This document shows, piece after piece, positions 6,215-13,197 of a DNA stretch of 20,252 nucleotides (positions within the stretch are counted from its first letter, which is position 1; each line of letters begins with the position of its first letter). Below the pieces are notes generated by a model. It saw nothing but the letters and a program-made list of their open reading frames with translations, was not told the origin of the DNA and ran no database searches. The position numbers and the translations under genes were made by a program. The stretch covers positions 1 through 20,252 of the IMG/VR virus record IMGVR_UViG_3300042992_001852, one strand, 5' to 3'. Source of the stretch: a virus.

Positions 6215-7612
6215 ATGTCAACCATCAATGCTTTGCAGATTGAAATGTGGACGCTCGATCGAGTTCGTCCCTATGAAAACAACCCTCGCAACAACGACAA
6301 AGCCGTCGACGCGGTCGCTGCTTCGATCAAAGAGTATGGCTTCTCGCAGCCAATCGTTGTCGACAGCGACAGCGTTATCATCGTCGGCCATACGCGACTG
6401 AAGGCAGCCCAGAAGCTTGGCCTGGAGCGTGTGCCCGTCGTGGTCGCTTCGCATTTGACGCCAGAGCAAGTTCGAGCTTATCGGATCGCCGACAACAAAA
6501 CCGCTGAGATCGCGGAATGGAATTACGACCTGTTGCCGATCGAATTGTCGGCATTGCAGGAAGCCAACTACGATCTCGGACTCCTCGGATTCAACGCTCA
6601 GGAACTTGCGAAGCTGATGGATACCGGCGTCAACGAAGGTTTGACGGACCCGGACGAGATCCCCGAGCCGCCAGACGATGCGGTCACTCAGCTAGGCGAT
6701 CTTTGGATCCTCGGTAACCATCGGTTGCTCTGTGGTAACTCCTCATCGCCGGCAGACCTGGATCGTTTGCTGGCCGGCGCTGCCATCCATCTCGTCAACA
6801 CAGATCCGCCTTACAACGTGAAGGTTGAACCGCGATCGAACAACGCAATCGCTGCCGGCCTTTCTTCGTTCACAAACGATGGAGCAGCTTCGAGACTCAA
6901 AGGTGGCCAAGGCAATGCTGCGTCTTTTGGTGTCGACCACGAGACTGGCAAGCCTAAGCATGCGGCGACGCACAAAAAGCTTCGTGCTAAAGATCGTCCG
7001 TTAGCGAATGACTTCGTTAGCGACGAGGCTTTTGATCAGTTGCTTGACGATTGGTTCGGCAACATTGCCCGAGTCTTGCTGCCAGGTCGCTGCTTCTACA
7101 TTTGGGGCGGCTACGCCAATTGCGGTAACTATCCGCCAGTGCTGAAGAAGCATGGGCTGTATTTCTCGCAGTCCATCATCTGGGACAAACAGCATCCTGT
7201 ACTTACGCGAAAAGATTTCATGGGTGCCCACGAATGGGCGTTCTATGGCTGGAAGGAAGGAGCCGGGCATAAGTATTACGGGCCCAAGAATGCAACGGAC
7301 CTATGGCAGGTGAAGAAGATCAATCCGCAGTCGATGTCGCATTTAACTCAGAAGCCTGCGGAGCTCGCCGTTCGCGCGATGCAGTACTCATCTGTGCAAG
7401 GTGAGAACGTGCTCGACCTCTTCGGTGGAAGTGGCTCGACGATGATCGGCGCGGAGCAATGTGGTCGCAATTCGTTCTTGATGGAACTCGACACACTTTA
7501 TTGTGACGTAATCGTTGATAGGTACCAAAGGTTTTCTGGTAACAAGGCCATCTTGGAACGGACCGGCGAATCTCCGATTCCGATGCAGCCTCGTGAACAG
7601 AACATGCGATAG
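6215..7612 (+). CDS. ParB-domain DNA methyltransferase (N6-adenine or N4-cytosine)
   Basis: This 465-residue protein joins a ParB/sulfiredoxin-like N-terminal domain (residues 10-100, with GHTRLKAAQKLGL at 58-70) to a DNA amino-methyltransferase. The catalytic motif DPPY is at 197-200 and the S-adenosylmethionine motif FGGSGST at 403-409. The order, DPPY before FxGxG, marks the beta class. The enzyme would transfer a methyl group to an exocyclic amine in a specific site on phage or host DNA. No restriction gene is adjacent, so it is probably a solitary phage methyltransferase for self-protection or regulation. The ATG at 6215 follows GGAAGGAACACC. It ends 10 bases before the convergent minus-strand block. 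A perfect AGGAGG starts within its stop codon (7611-7616). Confidence 0.9.
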   Translation: MSTINALQIEMWTLDRVRPYENNPRNNDKAVDAVAASIKEYGFSQPIVVDSDSVIIVGHTRLKAAQKLGLERVPVVVASHLTPEQVRAYRIADNKTAEIAEWNYDLLPIELSALQEANYDLGLLGFNAQELAKLMDTGVNEGLTDPDEIPEPPDDAVTQLGDLWILGNHRLLCGNSSSPADLDRLLAGAAIHLVNTDPPYNVKVEPRSNNAIAAGLSSFTNDGAASRLKGGQGNAASFGVDHETGKPKHAATHKKLRAKDRPLANDFVSDEAFDQLLDDWFGNIARVLLPGRCFYIWGGYANCGNYPPVLKKHGLYFSQSIIWDKQHPVLTRKDFMGAHEWAFYGWKEGAGHKYYGPKNATDLWQVKKINPQSMSHLTQKPAELAVRAMQYSSVQGENVLDLFGGSGSTMIGAEQCGRNSFLMELDTLYCDVIVDRYQRFSGNKAILERTGESPIPMQPREQNMR

Positions 7613-7622
7613 GAGGTCGCGA

Positions 7623-7940
7623 TCAAAACTTATGACTATGCCAAGCCTCGTCTTCAAAGACATAGATGTACTCCGCTCCGCAGTTCCTAGCGAATTCATG
7701 CAGGGCTGCGCGAGTGGGCATGACAACCGCGCGGTTGCCGTCGGTGAATCGTTCGGGCGTTCCGTCGTTAGCGAGCGATCGAATATCGCCGCCTGCGACC
7801 AGCGTTCGTGCCGACTCGATCAAAGTGTAATGTTCTTTGAGGACTCTGCCGGCATGGTCTTGGTAGCCATCGAAGTGAAGATAGATCGCTGCGTAGCGAC
7901 CGTCTTCTTGCTTGCAGGCAATCGTTGCTCTTGTGGACAT
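7623..7940 (-). CDS. Conserved-type phage accessory protein (IYLHFDGYQDHAG family), function unknown
   Basis: This 105-residue protein resembles a widespread family of phage and plasmid hypotheticals. An N-terminal STRATIACKQEDG strand pair is followed by AIYLHFDGYQDHAGRVL (residues 18-34), then LVAGGDIRSL, and a C-terminal YIYVFEDEAWH segment. In the family the central motif is usually HWDGYP-like and the end is an aromatic, acidic strand followed by Trp. No catalytic motif is visible and the role is unknown. ATG at 7940 follows AAGGAAACC, 12 bases after the DUF4314 stop, so these two genes form a pair. The stop is 10 bases from the convergent methyltransferase gene. Confidence 0.75.
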   Translation of the reverse strand: MSTRATIACKQEDGRYAAIYLHFDGYQDHAGRVLKEHYTLIESARTLVAGGDIRSLANDGTPERFTDGNRAVVMPTRAALHEFARNCGAEYIYVFEDEAWHSHKF

Positions 7941-7952
7941 AGGTTGGTTTCC

Positions 7953-8183
7953 TTACTTCGATGGTTCGTGGTGGTTGGGTTCGACGATGGCGACACAATC
8001 GTCGGGCATCGTCAACATGAGCGAGCGGCCGTTGTCCCAGTCGACATCTACCTGCGTCCAATCGCGATGCTCGTAAACTTCAACAACGGTCCCGAGCGAT
8101 CCAACGGGGATCGGGTCTGGATCTTGCGGCATCGACACCAAGCGGATGCGATCGCCTTTCTTCAAACGTGTCTGCATAGTCAT
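7953..8183 (-). CDS. DUF4314 family protein
   Basis: This 76-residue protein contains KGDRIRLVSMPQDPDPIPVG followed by LGTVVEVYEH and VDVDWDNGRSLMLTMPDD. This is a close fit to DUF4314: a small SH3-like beta barrel with conserved GDRIRL, M-x-D-P-x-P-I and W-D-N-G elements, common on phages and plasmids. Its biochemical role is not established. Two starts are possible: ATG at 8183, very close to AAGGAACCC, or ATG at 8177, with better spacing. It is followed 12 bases later by the 105-residue gene. Confidence 0.85.
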   Translation of the reverse strand: MTMQTRLKKGDRIRLVSMPQDPDPIPVGSLGTVVEVYEHRDWTQVDVDWDNGRSLMLTMPDDCVAIVEPNHHEPSK

Positions 8184-8237
8184 GGGTTCCTTGTTTCATT
8201 TGGTGTTTGCGTTGAGTTTGTCGAGCAACTCGCCGGC

Positions 8238-8411
8238 TTAAGCGAGTCGGGCATTGACCTGGGCCATCGTGTGAACGTTCCGCCATCGCAGCTTTGGGTA
8301 ATCTGGTTGTTGCAAGGCGTCAAGCGAATGACGCAATCGATCGAGGTAATCGCGTGCAACGAGGTGAAGGTTCTCGTAGGGAGCGGCCGGCTCAAGGGTT
8401 GGTTTGGACAT
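8238..8411 (-). CDS. Small protein of unknown function
   Basis: This 57-residue product starts at ATG 8411 behind AGGAACCAACC. It has a short Pro-rich start, one helix-like segment (LVARDYLDRLRHSLDAL) and a C-terminal QVNARLA helix. No family is recognised. Upstream, at about the position of the leader elements of other genes in this block, lies a diverged copy of the 38-bp leader (around 8444-8486), then an AACATGC palindrome. Good start signals and the shared register with its neighbours support it. Confidence 0.55.
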   Translation of the reverse strand: MSKPTLEPAAPYENLHLVARDYLDRLRHSLDALQQPDYPKLRWRNVHTMAQVNARLA

Positions 8412-8443
8412 GGTTGGTTCCTGGTTGGTGGAGAAACGAAAAA

Positions 8444-8486
8444 CGATCGTCAACAGTCAGCCAGCAAGTCGCGAAAACATCAAGCC
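8444..8486 (-). promoter_or_regulatory. Possible diverged copy of the block's leader element
   Basis: Read on the minus strand, GGCTTGATGTTTTCGCGA then GCTGGCTGACTGTTGA then CGATCG can be aligned with the 12775-12812 copy (GGCTGGATGTTCCTCGAA, GCATGGCTCATGTGTG, CATCG) if small gaps are allowed. Its GGCTTG is 70 bases from the start codon, against 75-90 for the clear copies. The similarity is partial and found by eye. Confidence 0.35.
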
Positions 8487-8526
8487 AACATGCGAGCATG
8501 TTTTGCAAAATTCCTCAAAACATGCC
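8487..8526. promoter_or_regulatory. AAACATGC motif cluster with a perfect palindrome
   Basis: AACATGC (8487-8493), GA, GCATGTT (8496-8502) is a perfect inverted repeat, and AAAACATGCC follows at 8517-8526. The same heptamer is clustered in the other long spacer of the block (12819-12925). A palindromic site repeated only in upstream regions suggests an operator for a phage regulator. Confidence 0.45.
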
Positions 8527-8586
8527 GACGCGCCAGAGAACCGCAGTATCGCAACGTGTCGCGTTGTGTTGCTTGTTGGACTTATG

Positions 8587-8630
8587 CTCGCATCAACGAG
8601 AAAACGCCCGCACGGTGTAAACGTGGGGCG
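8587..8630. repeat. Hairpin element related to a second copy at 12899-12955
   Basis: CTCGCATCAACGAG can fold with CTCG/CGAG. It is followed by AAAACGC and then a second stem, CACG (8611-8614) with CGTG (8622-8625), flanked by CCC and GGG. The order ATGCTC, GCAT, AACGAG, AAAACGC, AAACG recurs at 12897-12945. The region 8527-8663 contains no gene that I can support; this element and a weak CAACG/CGTTG stem near 8555 are the only structures seen. Confidence 0.4.
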
Positions 8631-8663
8631 ATTGGTGGGAAGCGTTCCGTGCTTCGGGCTTGT

Positions 8664-8897
8664 CTAAAAGTCGTGCGGTACCAGGATGGCAGCGCCGTGG
8701 CCGGAGACGGCAATCGAGTCTCCGTTGGTCGTTCGCGCGAACAGGTTTGGGCCTTGTCGGATCACGTCAACAACGCTGCCGACGTCGAGTCTGCGATTGT
8801 TGATCGTTCGCAGGTCGTAGGTGATACCTGGCTCTGGCGTTGCGATCTCGCCGTCGGCCAGGTCATCCACCGTTCGCAAATCGTAAAAGTGTTTCAC
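8664..8897 (-). CDS. Small beta-rich protein of unknown function, GTG start
   Basis: This 77-residue protein starts at GTG 8897. The ribosome site GGAG overlaps the stop codon of the upstream HARE-HTH gene (TAGGAG), so the two genes are probably co-translated. A motif YDLRT occurs twice, at residues 5-9 and 27-31, each followed by a polar turn, suggesting a short internal repeat. The C-terminal part (VGSVVDVIRQG then LFARTTNGDSIAV) alternates hydrophobic residues like a small beta barrel. No family is recognised. Coupling to a DNA-binding protein hints at a related function. Confidence 0.65.
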   Translation of the reverse strand: MKHFYDLRTVDDLADGEIATPEPGITYDLRTINNRRLDVGSVVDVIRQGPNLFARTTNGDSIAVSGHGAAILVPHDF

Positions 8898-8909
8898 CGG
8901 CTGGGTCTC

Positions 8910-9479
8910 CTAGCCTCGCACCGTGAAGCGTCCGCGTTCGGTCTTCACGAACTTGCTATCGTCACCCTTGGCCAGGTCGCGAAGGATCGCGCTGTACAAG
9001 GTCGCGTGGGGAGTCTTGCCACCGGGGCTGGTCCAATAGCCCTTGGCTTCCATCGCCGTGATCAACTCTTGAGCGTTCATCGGTTCGCTCGATTCGCTGA
9101 GAACCTTCAAGGCCGCAGCGACGCAGCTCAATCGCTTCTCGCCGGCGTCAGCCGTCTCGGTGGATGCTGCCTTTGCCTTGCGTGGCTTCTTGAGAACCGC
9201 AACCGCTGTGGACGACTCGCCTCCGATCGTTTCGACCGTGGCCGGTTCGTTCTCAACCACCGTTACGTTGCCTTCAGTGGTGACCTTCGCGCGTCCGCGC
9301 TTCGCACCCACTTCGCCCAGAAGGCGCTGAGCGCTCTTAATGAGAATCTTCTTGCCGGTTGCGAGGTTGGTTGCATCCCAGCCACCGCGAGGCTTCTCGG
9401 CATCGATTTGAATCTCGCATCGGTTGCCCGAAACGTTCGCGTAGTACTTGCCACCAATCTTTACTTCTGCCTTCTTCAT
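8910..9479 (-). CDS. HARE-HTH winged-helix domain protein
   Basis: This 189-residue protein has three parts. The first is an N-terminal beta segment (residues 1-60, KIGGKYYANVSGN and following) like a small barrel. A Val/Ala/Lys-rich linker of about 50 residues comes next. The last 76 residues are a HARE-HTH domain, with ALKVLSESSEPMNAQELI, GGKTPHATLYSAI and a final KFVKTERGRFTV strand. The GKTP-x-x-T-L and F-x-x-x-x-x-G-R-F motifs are diagnostic. HARE-HTH is a winged helix found in chromatin factors, restriction enzymes and phage proteins and is thought to bind DNA, perhaps sensing modified bases. ATG at 9479 follows GGAGAGACGAAG; an upstream in-frame ATG at 9518 lacks such a site. A methyltransferase on the same phage makes a modification-sensing role attractive but unproven. 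Confidence 0.85.
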   Translation of the reverse strand: MKKAEVKIGGKYYANVSGNRCEIQIDAEKPRGGWDATNLATGKKILIKSAQRLLGEVGAKRGRAKVTTEGNVTVVENEPATVETIGGESSTAVAVLKKPRKAKAASTETADAGEKRLSCVAAALKVLSESSEPMNAQELITAMEAKGYWTSPGGKTPHATLYSAILRDLAKGDDSKFVKTERGRFTVRG

Positions 9480-9572
9480 CTTCGTCTCTCCAATTCTGTG
9501 TTCGTGGTTGGCTGCCATCGTCAGGCCGATCGAACCACCGATCGACTACGCGCGTCCGTGCTGCGTTTCGGC

Positions 9573-9887
9573 TTATTGACCAAAGACCAAGTCCGACAAT
9601 CCCTCGCAAAGGAAGTCGACCACCACTTGGACTTCCGTGTTGACCGCCGGCACATCCAAACCACGGTCGAAGTTGAACATTACTTTCCGGTCGGAAAGTC
9701 GCTGAATCCAAAGCTTCGAAATTTTGCTTTGATTCAGTTCGAAGGATTTTTGGTCGGCGTGGTCGGCGAAGACCAAGGCGTCGAAGCGGTATTCATCGTT
9801 GATCTTGCCTTGTACCCAAGATCCGCCAGCGGTGCGGTTGCGGTTGCTGATCTTGGTGATCGTGAGGTCGAGGTCGCGTTCGGTCAT
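9573..9887 (-). CDS. Unknown 104-residue protein
   Basis: ATG at 9887 begins MTERDLDL. The protein alternates short beta strands with polar loops (LTITKISNRNR, SWVQGKINDEYRFDALVFAD, KLWIQRLSDRKVMFNFDRGLD) and ends in an acidic, hydrophobic segment EVQVVVDFLCEGLSDLVFG. No motif I know. The start is preceded by A-rich sequence rather than a clear Shine-Dalgarno site, unlike its neighbours. The 38-bp leader element lies 43 bases upstream. The shared register with the other ten genes and the leader support it as real. Confidence 0.65.
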   Translation of the reverse strand: MTERDLDLTITKISNRNRTAGGSWVQGKINDEYRFDALVFADHADQKSFELNQSKISKLWIQRLSDRKVMFNFDRGLDVPAVNTEVQVVVDFLCEGLSDLVFGQ

Positions 9888-9930
9888 TTGTTTGTATCTG
9901 TTGCTTGGTTGGTGAATCGTTTTCGCGTTA

Positions 9931-9968
9931 ACACACATGAGCCATGCGGTTTGAACCGCATCAAGCCG
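9931..9968 (-). repeat. 38-bp leader element, copy 1
   Basis: The plus strand reads ACACACATGAGCCATGCG, 13 variable bases, then CAAGCCG. In this copy the variable part makes a perfect hairpin on the minus strand (ATGCGGTT, CA, AACCGCAT). It lies 43 bases upstream of the start at 9887. Confidence 0.85.
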
Positions 9969-9971
9969 GAT

Positions 9972-10220
9972 TCAAAAGGAATTCGAATTCTTTTCTTCGG
10001 TGCATACCTGCGTGCGGAAATGCTGGGCGAGCTTCGCGGCTGTGGCCTGCACATCAGCCAACTCGTCGAAGAACCGTTTCATGGTGTTTGGGTCGGCAGC
10101 CGCGAGGATCGGCATTTCTTCGACCGCTGCGTACAGGTCGCTGATTGTTTCCAGCGCTCGTCGGTGTACGCCGAGGAACTGGGCCGAGGTCAGGCGTGGT
10201 CGGTTCGTCATGGTTGGCAT
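9972..10220 (-). CDS. Small helical protein of unknown function
   Basis: This 82-residue protein starts at ATG 10220 behind AAGGAGATCAACACG, a strong ribosome site. Apart from a short basic N terminus it looks all helical: FLGVHRRALETISDLYAAVEEM and TMKRFFDELADVQATAAKLAQHFR have heptad-like hydrophobic spacing. The C-terminal codons lie inside a GAATTCGAATTC palindrome that may be part of a weak terminator (9974-9994). Leader copy 2 is 45 bases upstream of the start. No family is recognised. Confidence 0.7.
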   Translation of the reverse strand: MPTMTNRPRLTSAQFLGVHRRALETISDLYAAVEEMPILAAADPNTMKRFFDELADVQATAAKLAQHFRTQVCTEEKNSNSF

Positions 10221-10265
10221 CGTGTTGATCTCCTTTTGTTCGTGTTTGATATGTCGTATGCGATG

Positions 10266-10303
10266 ACACACATGAGCCATGCGGTTCAACCGACAGCAAG
10301 CCG
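10266..10303 (-). repeat. 38-bp leader element, copy 2
   Basis: This copy has the same 18-mer, 13-base variable part and CAAGCCG. The variable part is identical to copy 4 (minus strand CTGTCGGTTGAAC) and can pair as CGG/CCG around TTGAA. It is placed 45 bases upstream of the 10220 start and directly after the terminator of the preceding gene. Confidence 0.85.
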
Positions 10304-10311
10304 AAGAAGAA

Positions 10312-10338
10312 AAGATTCTGGAGGTTTTCCAGAATCTT
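10312..10338 (-). terminator. Intrinsic terminator of the 90-residue gene
   Basis: On the minus strand AAGATTCTGG, loop AAAACCT, CCAGAATCTT forms a perfect 10-bp stem followed by TTCTTCTTC. It lies 27 bases after the stop of the gene ending at 10365 and immediately before leader copy 2. Confidence 0.8.
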
Positions 10339-10364
10339 CTCCCCGGCGCATCGATGTGTCGCAA

Positions 10365-10637
10365 TCAACTATCGCGACATGTTTCCCAAGCCCGTTTGCT
10401 GCCGTAGCAGATCTGACCGCCTTCGACGATGTAGACCGTGTGGTCGTCGGCAACGTCTTGGGCGTCGTCGTCTTCATCCTCATCGTCGGACGCGTCGTTC
10501 ATGTCGCGTCCGCTGGTCACGCCGCAGATGCGGTTCTCGAAGGGCCAGTTCTGCTGTGTCATAAGTCGCACTTCGGCGTCGCCTCCGAACTCTTCGCGGT
10601 AGTCGTTGAGGATTTCGATCAAGGTGTCGAGATTCAT
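10365..10637 (-). CDS. Acidic small protein of unknown function
   Basis: This 90-residue protein starts at ATG 10637 after CGGAGAACCAAAC. It begins with a helix, MNLDTLIEILNDYREEFGGDAEVRL. A middle part contains PFENRICGVTSG, then a run of Asp/Glu (about residues 50-64) interrupts the fold, and it ends DHTVYIVEGGQICYGSKRAW. The helix, strands and closing YIVEGGQICYG look like a compact alpha-beta domain with an acidic insertion. Similar short hypotheticals occur in phages, but I cannot name a family. The acidic stretch might mimic DNA, which is speculation. Leader copy 3 lies 43 bases upstream, and a strong terminator follows. Confidence 0.75.
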   Translation of the reverse strand: MNLDTLIEILNDYREEFGGDAEVRLMTQQNWPFENRICGVTSGRDMNDASDDEDEDDDAQDVADDHTVYIVEGGQICYGSKRAWETCRDS

Positions 10638-10680
10638 GTTTGGTTCTCCGTTTGGGTGAATGAAAATTGGTTATGTGATA

Positions 10681-10718
10681 ACACACATGAGCCATGCGGT
10701 GCGGACAACCTCAAGCCG
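10681..10718 (-). repeat. 38-bp leader element, copy 3
   Basis: The 18-mer and CAAGCCG are intact; the variable part on the minus strand is AGGTTGTCCGCAC, where only a short GGT/ACC stem is possible. The base run after the 18-mer is TATC rather than CATC. It is 43 bases upstream of the 10637 start. Confidence 0.85.
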
Positions 10719-10745
10719 TCCTTGCAATGTTTTCAGCAGGTTTTT

Positions 10746-11021
10746 TCAGCATTTTTTGGAAGGCAAACATTCATCGATCGCGTCGGGCAACATGCTGCCG
10801 GAAAGGACGTCGATTGCTTCCTCAAACATGCGGAGCTCTGCTTCGAGGGCTCGAGCGGAATCTCCGGTCGCTATTACGAATGCGCCGGCCAGGTTGTCAG
10901 CCAGTCGCCTCAACCTCGAGACCAATTCACGGTAGTCCTCACAGAGATCCATCGCTGTGGCGCGAGGCATTTGTTTGAAGGCGGCTCTAATAGCAGTGGG
11001 TCTGGCGTTGATTCGAGACAT
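10746..11021 (-). CDS. Small helical protein of unknown function
   Basis: This 91-residue protein starts at ATG 11021 behind AGGAGAACAGACCG. It has a basic N terminus (INARPTAIRAAFKQ) and two long helix-like stretches, DLCEDYRELVSRLRRLADNLAGAF and SARALEAELRMFEEAIDVL, ending in a Cys/Lys tail. The composition and length resemble the helical proteins at 9972 and 11313, though I see no clear alignment. It might form coiled-coil contacts. Leader copy 4 lies 49 bases upstream. Confidence 0.7.
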   Translation of the reverse strand: MSRINARPTAIRAAFKQMPRATAMDLCEDYRELVSRLRRLADNLAGAFVIATGDSARALEAELRMFEEAIDVLSGSMLPDAIDECLPSKKC

Positions 11022-11070
11022 CGGTCTGTTCTCCTATTGCGTGGTGAAAGCGGTTGGTCGCTGACCGATG

Positions 11071-11108
11071 ACACACATGAGCCATGCGGTTCAACCGACA
11101 GCAAGCCG
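11071..11108 (-). repeat. 38-bp leader element, copy 4
   Basis: This copy is identical to copy 2 over the whole 38 bases, including the 13 variable positions. It is 49 bases upstream of the 11021 start. Between it and 11263 I see no gene. Confidence 0.85.
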
Positions 11109-11263
11109 AGTCCGCTAGCTTTCTCCCATGTTCTTCCATGTTTCTTAGGAGGCCTTACGGGGCCCGACGTTGGCCCGTGTTGCGATGCTTTGAATGTTGG
11201 GGACTTGGTCGAAGGTTCCGACAAGAACGCTACTGCGGGCGAGTGTCGCGACCAAGCGGAAGA

Positions 11264-11287
11264 ACGCCGCGCTTCCGTTCGCGGCGT
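11264..11287 (-). terminator. Terminator-like hairpin after the 85-residue gene
   Basis: On the minus strand ACGCCGCG, loop AACGGAAG, CGCGGCGT is a perfect 8-bp GC stem followed by TCTTCC. It starts about 25 bases after the stop of the gene ending at 11313. The T-run is short, so termination strength is uncertain. Confidence 0.6.
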
Positions 11288-11312
11288 CCGTGGCATTCCG
11301 CTGGTCTGTGGT

Positions 11313-11570
11313 TTAGAGGATCTTTCCAAGGCGGCTGTTCTTCATCGCGTCCAGGGCTTGGACCGCGTTGAAGTGTTCGGTGAGAAGCGGGCCGGCGCTG
11401 GGTGTTTGTTGTGCGTCGGCGACCTCGAGGGTTTCCGCGAGGGTCATCAAACCCTCGATTGCCTTGTAGTAGGCTTCGCGGATCTCTTGGGCTTGGTGGG
11501 CATCCATCGCCTTGAAGATCTGGCGAAGGGTTGCGTCGGTCGCTGCGTGTGGGTTGTTTGCGTTGGTCAT
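11313..11570 (-). CDS. Small helical protein of unknown function
   Basis: This 85-residue protein starts at ATG 11570 after CGGAGACACAAAC. A short polar N terminus is followed by helix-like segments ATLRQIFKAMDAHQAQEI, AYYKAIEGLMTLAETLEVADA and LLTEHFNAVQALDAM. No domain is recognised. It is the third small helical protein in this block. Leader copy 5 lies 46 bases upstream and a GC-rich hairpin lies just downstream, so it looks like an independent transcription unit. Confidence 0.7.
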   Translation of the reverse strand: MTNANNPHAATDATLRQIFKAMDAHQAQEIREAYYKAIEGLMTLAETLEVADAQQTPSAGPLLTEHFNAVQALDAMKNSRLGKIL

Positions 11571-11616
11571 GTTTGTGTCTCCGTTTCGGAAAAAGGTTTG
11601 AATCGTTTACGCGATG

Positions 11617-11654
11617 ACACACATGAGCCATGCGGTTCGAATAACCTCAAGCCG
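11617..11654 (-). repeat. 38-bp leader element, copy 5
   Basis: The 18-mer and CAAGCCG are intact; the variable part on the minus strand is AGGTTATTCGAAC, pairing GGTT with AACC across ATTCG. It is 46 bases upstream of the 11570 start. A GATTCC/GGAATC hairpin (11665-11680) lies just before it on the minus strand. Confidence 0.85.
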
Positions 11655-11820
11655 AGCCTTCGAGGATTCCAAAAGGAATCTGAATGTTTTTCTGGATCGC
11701 GTCAGTTCGCACAAAACGCGCCGCGTCGCGTTACAGTTCGGGTTTGGCCACTATTAGTGACATACACGATTCGAGCCCAAGGTGACGTAAAATTTGCCTC
11801 ACGTTGGCAAACGTGTGAAA

Positions 11821-11840
11821 GCCGAACTTCCGTGTTCGGC
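11821..11840 (-). terminator. Terminator-like hairpin after the amidoligase gene
   Basis: On the minus strand GCCGAAC, loop ACGGAA, GTTCGGC forms a 7-bp stem followed by TTTC, 18 bases after the stop at 11859. A second small stem, CACGTT/AACGTG, lies at 11800-11815. From there to leader copy 5 (about 11681-11799) I see no gene; CACTATTAGTG at 11749-11759 is a short palindrome. Confidence 0.6.
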
Positions 11841-11858
11841 GTTTCGTTTGATTGCGGT

Positions 11859-12716
11859 CTAGGCCGCGCGGTCGTATTTGCGGGCGAGGTCGAGGAGTTT
11901 GGTTTTGATCGTCTTCCATTCCGGTTTGGTTTCGTCGGCAATCTCTCCGTAGACCTTGTCGCGAAGGGCACCCTTGTACCAACCCTTAGTCCATCCGAGT
12001 CGGTAGAACAATCGGTTGAGCTCCGTTTCGCCAAGGCCGGCACCAGGGCGGTCCCAGCAACTCTTTGTTCCTTCCTTCTTGATGTAATCCCATTCGCTGC
12101 AGCGTTTGGTATTGAGGGCGAGTTCTACCAAACCCAAAACCATCATCAGGTATCCGACCACCTTGGTCTTGTTGAGCGTTCCGCCGAAGGCCCGAAATTC
12201 GATTCGGTTCTTGCCGCGGGTCAGGTGGGTGAGGTTCAGCAGGTGGTAGCGATCCGATTCGCATCGGCTCTTGGCGTTGTCTTTGTTTCCGTATTGTTTG
12301 ATTCGCTTGGCGTACATCATCTGTTCGCGTTTACGGGTTCCGGTCGAAGCGTAGATCGCTCGTTCGTGGTTTCCGACCAAGGAAATCAATCTTGCCAAGG
12401 CGGCTGCGTCTCCGTTCCAGCTAACCGTTATGTGCAAACCGCAACTCGAATTTACTCGGCCTCCGCGAGCGTTGATCTGGTCGATTGCGTTCTCGATCTG
12501 GCGTACGCCTTCTGCCCCTTTGAGTATCGGGCTTACAAATTCGCATCCTTTGCGAGAGGTGTTCTCGGGTCGGATACTTCCGTCGCGTTCTGCTTTCCAT
12601 CCGGTTGGCAGCCAAGGTACTTGGTATCCGCTGTGGTAGGGTCCGATCGGTGTGTTGTCGGTGCTTGGGAGGGTGGTTTCGAATTCAATTCCGAAGGCGA
12701 TTTCGTTTGCGTTCAT
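11859..12716 (-). CDS. Amidoligase-family enzyme (Amidoligase_2, glutamine-synthetase-like fold)
   Basis: This 285-residue protein shows the motif series of the putative amidoligase family: GIEFE at residues 9-13, W40 followed by DGSI (45-48), CEFVSPIL (58-65), CGLHITVSW (92-100), RYHLLNL (156-162) and IEFRAFGGTLN (172-182). The conserved Glu residues, His95 and Arg175 match the metal and nucleotide-binding positions expected of a glutamine-synthetase-like COOH-NH2 ligase. Such enzymes are predicted to join an amine to a carboxylate using ATP, to make peptide tags or modified cell-wall or protein groups. No partner peptidase or cyclotransferase is visible nearby, so the substrate is unknown. 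ATG at 12716 follows AAGGAATAGAACG. Leader copy 6 is 58 bases upstream and a terminator-like hairpin follows. Confidence 0.85.
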   Translation of the reverse strand: MNANEIAFGIEFETTLPSTDNTPIGPYHSGYQVPWLPTGWKAERDGSIRPENTSRKGCEFVSPILKGAEGVRQIENAIDQINARGGRVNSSCGLHITVSWNGDAAALARLISLVGNHERAIYASTGTRKREQMMYAKRIKQYGNKDNAKSRCESDRYHLLNLTHLTRGKNRIEFRAFGGTLNKTKVVGYLMMVLGLVELALNTKRCSEWDYIKKEGTKSCWDRPGAGLGETELNRLFYRLGWTKGWYKGALRDKVYGEIADETKPEWKTIKTKLLDLARKYDRAA

Positions 12717-12774
12717 CGTTCTATTCCTTTGTGGTTCGAGGTGTGTTTTGCGTCGCGTTTTCTGCGTCGCGATG

Positions 12775-12812
12775 ACACACATGAGCCATGCGTTTCGAGG
12801 AACATCCAGCCG
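12775..12812 (-). repeat. 38-bp leader element, copy 6
   Basis: This is the most diverged of the six clear copies: ACACACATGAGCCATGCG is intact, but the second box is CCAGCCG instead of CAAGCCG, still exactly 31 bases from the first. It is 58 bases upstream of the amidoligase start, the longest spacing of the set. Confidence 0.8.
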
Positions 12813-12818
12813 ATTCCT

Positions 12819-12955
12819 GCATGTTTTTCCGGTAATTCTGCATGTTTTCAGAGAGGCCACCGGTGCCCCAACATTACGCCACCGGCGCGTCCAAACATGC
12901 TCCGCATAACGAGGCGAACATGCGGCTAAAACGCGACCGTGCGCAAACGGTGGCC
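12819..12955. promoter_or_regulatory. Divergent control region with four AAACATGC-type sites and a hairpin
   Basis: GCATGTTTT occurs at 12819 and 12840, 21 bases apart (two helical turns), and AAACATGC/GAACATGC at 12893 and 12916 in the opposite direction. Then AAAACGC and a short stem ACCGT/ACGGT (about 12935-12950) follow. The region lies between the minus-strand accessory block and the plus-strand late operon, so it probably holds divergent promoters. No standard -35/-10 pair stands out. Confidence 0.45.
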
Positions 12956-12990
12956 CCACGTTTCGAGATGCCAAACCATGGAGGAATGCG

Positions 12991-13197
12991 ATGAGTGACG
13001 GAAACAACCAGGTAGATCCGACGAGGCTTTCTGTAGAGCAAGCGGCGAAACTACTTTCAGCCGCGTACCGAGAACGCATCGAGCCAGAGAAGATCCGACA
13101 AGACCTACAAGACGGTGCGCCGGTGAACGTTGATGGAACGATCAACCTCGTGCACTACAGCGCATGGCAAGCAAAGGAGATGGGACGTGGCGAGTGA
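12991..13197 (+). CDS. Terminase small-subunit candidate (HTH-like)
   Basis: This 68-residue protein starts at ATG 12991 after a strong GGAGGAATGCG. LSVEQAAKLLSAAY looks like the first helix pair of a helix-turn-helix, followed by a short beta hairpin GAPVNVDGTINLVHYSAW. Its stop overlaps the start of the terminase large subunit (13187-13197). Its position first in the late operon suggests DNA recognition for packaging. The same fold appears at the N terminus of the next protein: GA-x-V/I, then T-I/V-N/D-L-x-x-Y-x-A-W. It is short for a small terminase, so it could be a partial or accessory packaging factor. Confidence 0.6.
   Translation: MSDGNNQVDPTRLSVEQAAKLLSAAYRERIEPEKIRQDLQDGAPVNVDGTINLVHYSAWQAKEMGRGE

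Follow-up and report, generated by a model that had tools for sequence, protein, structure and literature searches.

The minus strand of the window (the whole stretch of viral DNA that was analysed, 20,252 nucleotides) carries six copies of a two-box element, CTTG-N16-ATGGCTCATGTGTGT, placed before six genes of a temperate siphophage. In our reading each cassette gene would have its own strong phage-specific promoter with one copy at its core, a model to which, judging from the sequence, we give a probability of about two in three. The first-pass annotation had noticed the element and listed a phage-specific promoter among several options. The observation is real and larger than first described: this is a family-wide invariant cis-element, and a phage-specific promoter is the best reading here too. 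Promoter function, the start site and the type of polymerase are what we infer.

The copies, all on the minus strand, were found by sequence match at the positions already given for them: 9931-9968 (copy 6, before a DUF7678 gene), 10266-10303 (copy 5, before a gene of family 6), 10681-10718 (copy 4, family 1), 11071-11108 (copy 3, family 7), 11617-11654 (copy 2, family 2) and 12775-12812 (copy 1, before an amidoligase gene). Five of them read exactly CGGCTTG-N13-CGCATGGCTCATGTGTGT and copy 1 has CGGCTGG, as had been described, and the pattern did not occur in 100 shuffles. The distance from the element end to the ATG, announced as 43-58 bases, is in the same order 43, 45, 43, 49, 46 and 58 bases. 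The spacing is as rigid as had been claimed, with 20 bases between box starts in all six window copies; of 316 well-matched copies at other loci, 306 share this distance. Conservation was counted over 253 distinct copies, setting the C of CATGGC as x=0. CTTG at x -19 to -16 is 96-100% conserved, AA at x -5/-4 85-87%, CATGGCTCATGTGT at x 0-13 94-100%, and GT at x 14-15 89% and 80%. The triplet following CTTG (x -15 to -13) is ATG, CTG, AGG or AGC in 238 of the 253 copies, a restricted set in which neighbouring bases are interdependent. The paired CATG was also considered as a methylation target, a reading that was abandoned since one of the two CATG is missing from several variants. An open reading frame follows 333 of 336 element copies, 300 of them with a Shine-Dalgarno-like match; the ATG lies at a median of x=+61 (middle half 59-62) and the products typically have 69-104 aa.

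The window is itself a virus record of IMG/VR, and a longer record (G011, 37,552 bases) holds it without mismatch at 2169-22420. The phage is a siphophage with plus-strand terminase, portal and protease/capsid genes beyond the minus-strand array. On the other side of the array there are a Sak4-like recombinase, a RusA-like gene and a primase/helicase-like protein, followed by a ParB-like N6/N4 DNA methyltransferase adjoining the array (6215-7612, plus strand; 67-85% identical across clades). The virus family is considered temperate because several relatives have serine recombinases and sit in chromosomes. The array genes, all on the minus strand, encode a putative amidoligase (11859-12716; Pfam Amidoligase_2, E 1e-17), the families 2 (11313-11570; 85 aa, paralogous to family 7), 7 (10746-11021; 91 aa), 1 (10365-10637; 90 aa, present in most arrays), 6 (9972-10220; 82 aa) and 3 (DUF7678, 9573-9887; 104 aa, E 1.6e-15) and, as the last gene, a HARE-HTH protein (8910-9479; E 5e-13). 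The amidoligase is the first gene in most complete arrays and is 70-81% identical across clades.

The element was present in all 26 related virus records checked, with one to nine copies each on a single strand per record, and the reversed-pattern control gave none in the same records. Scans with the core matched 115 viral stretches and at least 118 genome stretches; among the genome matches listed, those with the second box belong to Planctomycetota, chiefly Pirellulaceae, and the remaining ones are chance 15-mer matches without the upstream box. Forty-seven of 397 Pirellulales genomes carry the element, against 1/397 for the reversed pattern. In host chromosomes of 8-10 Mb the copies lie almost solely in prophage arrays, as tight groups (four in Rhodopirellula rubra and two in Aporhodopirellula aestuarii), and are confined to one cassette array per prophage; other genomes have lone or paired copies, likewise ahead of the same gene families. 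Moreover, a weight-matrix scan of eight phage genomes returned the array copies alone, no weaker ones elsewhere, and its control was empty. The search of genomes and phages that had been suggested as a check therefore describes an element that is phage-specific, precedes genes and is not randomly placed in genomes. The virus family carrying it infects Pirellulales bacteria. The element marks this prophage family with almost no background in genomes of 2-11 Mb, and can thus be used for finding such prophages. An annotated phage collection gave only distant portal and terminase matches (<60% identity), and a search of the open-access literature found nothing on the element; little appears to have been published on gene regulation in planctomycete phages.

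As a promoter, the element would use the TTG at x=-18 to -16 as its -35 part, and the near-invariant CATGGCTCATGTGTGT would span the extended -10, the -10 and the discriminator region. Transcription would start near x=+17, about 17 bases past the C of CATGGC, giving a leader of about 44 bases that has a small hairpin at its 5' end, contains a Shine-Dalgarno site and runs up to the ATG at about x=+61. Upstream A/T triplets phased at 10.5-11 bp may serve a multisubunit RNA polymerase as an UP element or a region of bent DNA. Family-wide these triplets are centred at about x -57, -47 (0.92), -36 (0.88) and -25, with a period of 10-11.5 bp; the corresponding stretch (x -60 to -21) lies at 9967-10006 on the minus strand for copy 6, and in the same relative place before the other five window copies. 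For copies less than 70% alike, among which some relatedness remains, the phasing amplitude was 3.03, and the highest value reached by 2000 random register shifts was 1.47. The proximal and distal UP subsites extend from -45 to -37 and from -58 to -45 (PMC2613000), and when the TTG is taken as the -35 the nearest A/T peak, at about -41, lies within the proximal subsite and the next, at about -52, within the distal one. If the promoter is strong, it is a possible genetic tool for planctomycetes.

Some features count against the promoter model. There is no TATAAT-like -10, the -10 region is GC-rich, and the invariant block, at 14-16 bp, exceeds the length that is usual in sigma-dependent promoters. 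The earlier remark that this is not a sigma70 promoter agrees with our scan, in which neither strand of positions 9400-13100 gave a consensus match; by the sigma70 criteria the TTG and its spacing agree but the -10 differs, and the A/T-rich UP subsites are in place if the TTG is the -35. The resemblance of GAACC-N15-GTCAT to an ECF-type promoter was not supported, because conservation is weaker on both words and peaks between them, at CATGGCTCATGTGT. In addition, the two boxes and the phased A/T tracts upstream argue against a promoter for a single-subunit T7-like polymerase.

The nearly fixed distance to the ATG is a further point against the promoter model, since it would equally suit an element acting as RNA, that is, a leader of the cassette mRNA controlling termination, stability or translation. 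The spacer has a small excess of self-complementarity that points in the same direction (-7.55 kcal/mol versus -7.18 in column-shuffled copies, reached by 0 of 200 controls), although this difference of 0.3-0.4 kcal/mol may be due to relatedness; the element has no match in Rfam, and an undescribed family is possible. On the other hand, its fold energy is the same as that of shuffles (mean z -0.14 over family copies), and the small stem claimed between the spacer and the second box has a z of at most -1.8 in one copy and of about 0 in the rest. Covariation analysis, which had been proposed for this stem, revealed mutual information between neighbouring columns and not across a helix, and the helix pairs proposed from the 9931 copy were at chance level except for two isolated pairs. 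A short hairpin of shifting register with weak covariation (18:25) begins only at x=+18, as would be expected for a hairpin at the 5' end of an mRNA that starts near +17, and this was counted in favour of the start there. The phased A/T triplets upstream are a feature of DNA and, moreover, a strong terminator-like hairpin followed by a T-rich stretch lies just upstream of copy 5 (10306-10344, minus strand; -24.3 kcal/mol, z -4.8). The evidence favours the element acting as DNA over RNA, and we regard an RNA leader as very unlikely. Terminators had been reported before several copies; the hairpin before the 10266 copy is the one clear case, and the upstream stretches of the other five window copies fold no better than shuffles. 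A consensus terminator scan listed no minus-strand terminator and probably missed this hairpin because its stem absorbs the T-run. Family-wide, 19% of the upstream stretches fold much better than shuffles, which is consistent with terminators before some copies only.

For the factor reading the proposed promoter we would rank one common to Pirellulales hosts first, a phage sigma second and the HARE-HTH protein of the array third. A host-encoded factor fits the invariance of the element, but it leaves the absence of copies outside prophages unexplained unless its host promoters match much weaker. Specific reading by a phage-encoded sigma-70-like protein would give a phage regulon. The gene of such a protein lies just left of the window in the same virus (L240:1-597), on the strand opposite to the array and about 12 kb away. 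The assignment comes from PHROGs (sigma factor, E 6.7e-17) and from Pfam region 2 in 10 of 12 homologues; the AlphaFold model (pTM 0.39) and a fold search, without matches below 1e-3 and with mostly sigma chains at the top, ECF sigmas included, lend it weak support. Homologues occur in 23 of 34 records checked, about 31 of which have the element, and at least several of the misses are records that end on the sigma side. Of the 15 arrays in seven whole genomes, about 13 are accompanied by a homologue at a distance of 9-14 kb, usually past the array and on the opposite strand, and all four R. rubra arrays have one. This linkage is strong, but it may be mere co-inheritance. The sigma is the least conserved linked protein (19-38% identity across clades, compared with 73-78% for the terminase and 52-64% for HARE), although the element is invariant. 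L090 and L240 are 89-93% identical in aligned DNA blocks that begin just past the sigma gene and extend over most of the array, yet the L090 sigma is only about 27% identical and has a different region-4 recognition helix. The phage sigma is doubtful as the reader because L090 keeps the same elements despite this allele swap. Moreover, the prophage remnant L270 has the element without a sigma between methyltransferase and integrase. Two other apparent counterexamples, G186 and G360, were set aside and count neither way because the first is a contig end and the second a truncated prophage. Taken with its own evidence, reading by this sigma is unlikely.

The constant partners of the element are the HARE-HTH gene and the ParB-methyltransferase, present in 60 and 49 of 73 element-bearing loci respectively, both lower bounds because many loci are truncated; the methyltransferases are 61-100% identical. 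The HARE-HTH gene ranks above any other gene tested, is also found at single-copy loci with a different terminase and without sigma, and at several loci is directly preceded by a single element. The element might then serve chiefly to bind a regulator, for which HARE-HTH is a candidate, with polymerase contacts that are weak or nearby, and the two boxes with their long invariant block would be suitable for this. Nevertheless the core lacks dyad symmetry and does not form a clean direct repeat, HARE may merely be the most retained cassette, and we find this explanation quite unlikely. Within the promoter reading it is possible, as a tentative suggestion, that the promoter is of a new kind, in which an invariant extended -10 block of 14-16 bp, unlike any described sigma target, is read by a factor so far unrecognised, either an initiation factor of the host or HARE-HTH together with the neighbouring methyltransferase, and the fast-swapping sigma of the phage serves other promoters. 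Which factor reads a promoter that does not change when one phage sigma allele takes the place of another is a question that can be tested.

The cassette genes form 24 families at a 45% identity rule. Families 2, 7, 8 and 9 form one superfamily, families 14 and 21 form a third, and families 6, 13, 17 and 5 are probably a further one, with some pairs weakly supported by sequence. This grouping indicates array growth by joint duplication of leader and gene, with the leader unchanged; the arrays would grow and shrink by duplication and loss of whole units of leader plus gene. The description of each gene as a cassette is supported, in that each has its own leader. Within a lineage the cassette order changes little, and arrays differ by the presence or absence of entire cassettes, which could also suggest an integron-like recombination site for cassette exchange. 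However, the crossovers that best account for lost cassettes are scattered, some before the element, some within it and some after it; the element lacks an attC-like fold, and ordinary recombination between identical leaders suffices, making such a site extremely improbable. An integron attC or other site-specific site was rejected since the junctions have no fixed position.

Phage morons are small accessory genes on the opposite strand that form apparent transcription units of their own and are gained or lost between relatives. The array genes share these characteristics, but they have one leader in common and most are without a clear terminator by the tests used. Phage-encoded sigma factors read their own promoters, as for the middle genes of SPO1. 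Here, too, a promoter-like sequence is shared by a set of genes and a phage sigma is usually present, whereas the linked sigma is fast-evolving and swapped and the element is invariant. The start-associated sequences (SAS/ESAS) of cluster K mycobacteriophages are located 3-8 bp before the start codon. An SAS is the 13-bp GGGATAGGAGCCC, accompanied in about half of the genes that have it by 17-bp inverted repeats (PMC3203893). Like SAS/ESAS, the element is a conserved sequence of fixed orientation that precedes the start codons of numerous small phage genes and persists in diverged phages and gene families (PMC3203893); unlike them it is made of two rigidly spaced boxes at a long distance before the ribosome site, lacks inverted repeats and is confined to one array. 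Identity with SAS/ESAS was rejected, as the sequence differs and lies 43-58 bp before the start. With UP-element promoters (PMC2613000) it has in common the TTG box, the 17-18 bp or so to the conserved region and A/T subsites at the expected distances, but a GC-rich invariant block of 14-16 bp replaces the TATAAT-like -10. What the element has in common with the 'Rhodopirellula-1' motif (PMC2864571) is a host name.

An open frame of 1804 codons runs antisense to the whole array (7515-12929, plus strand) and is probably an artefact of codon bias. In the diverged prophages L261, L262, L264-L268 and L278 the HARE-HTH proteins have long lysine/alanine-rich N-termini that resemble histone H1-like tails. 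Before the last array gene the element is replaced by a type II hammerhead ribozyme (9506-9573, minus strand) that is kept in relatives: a scan of 16 related loci showed it just before the HARE-HTH gene in 15 (among them L034, L017, L105, L036, L050 and L129). Judged by its sequence, this ribozyme would cleave the mRNA at a point between DUF7678 and HARE.
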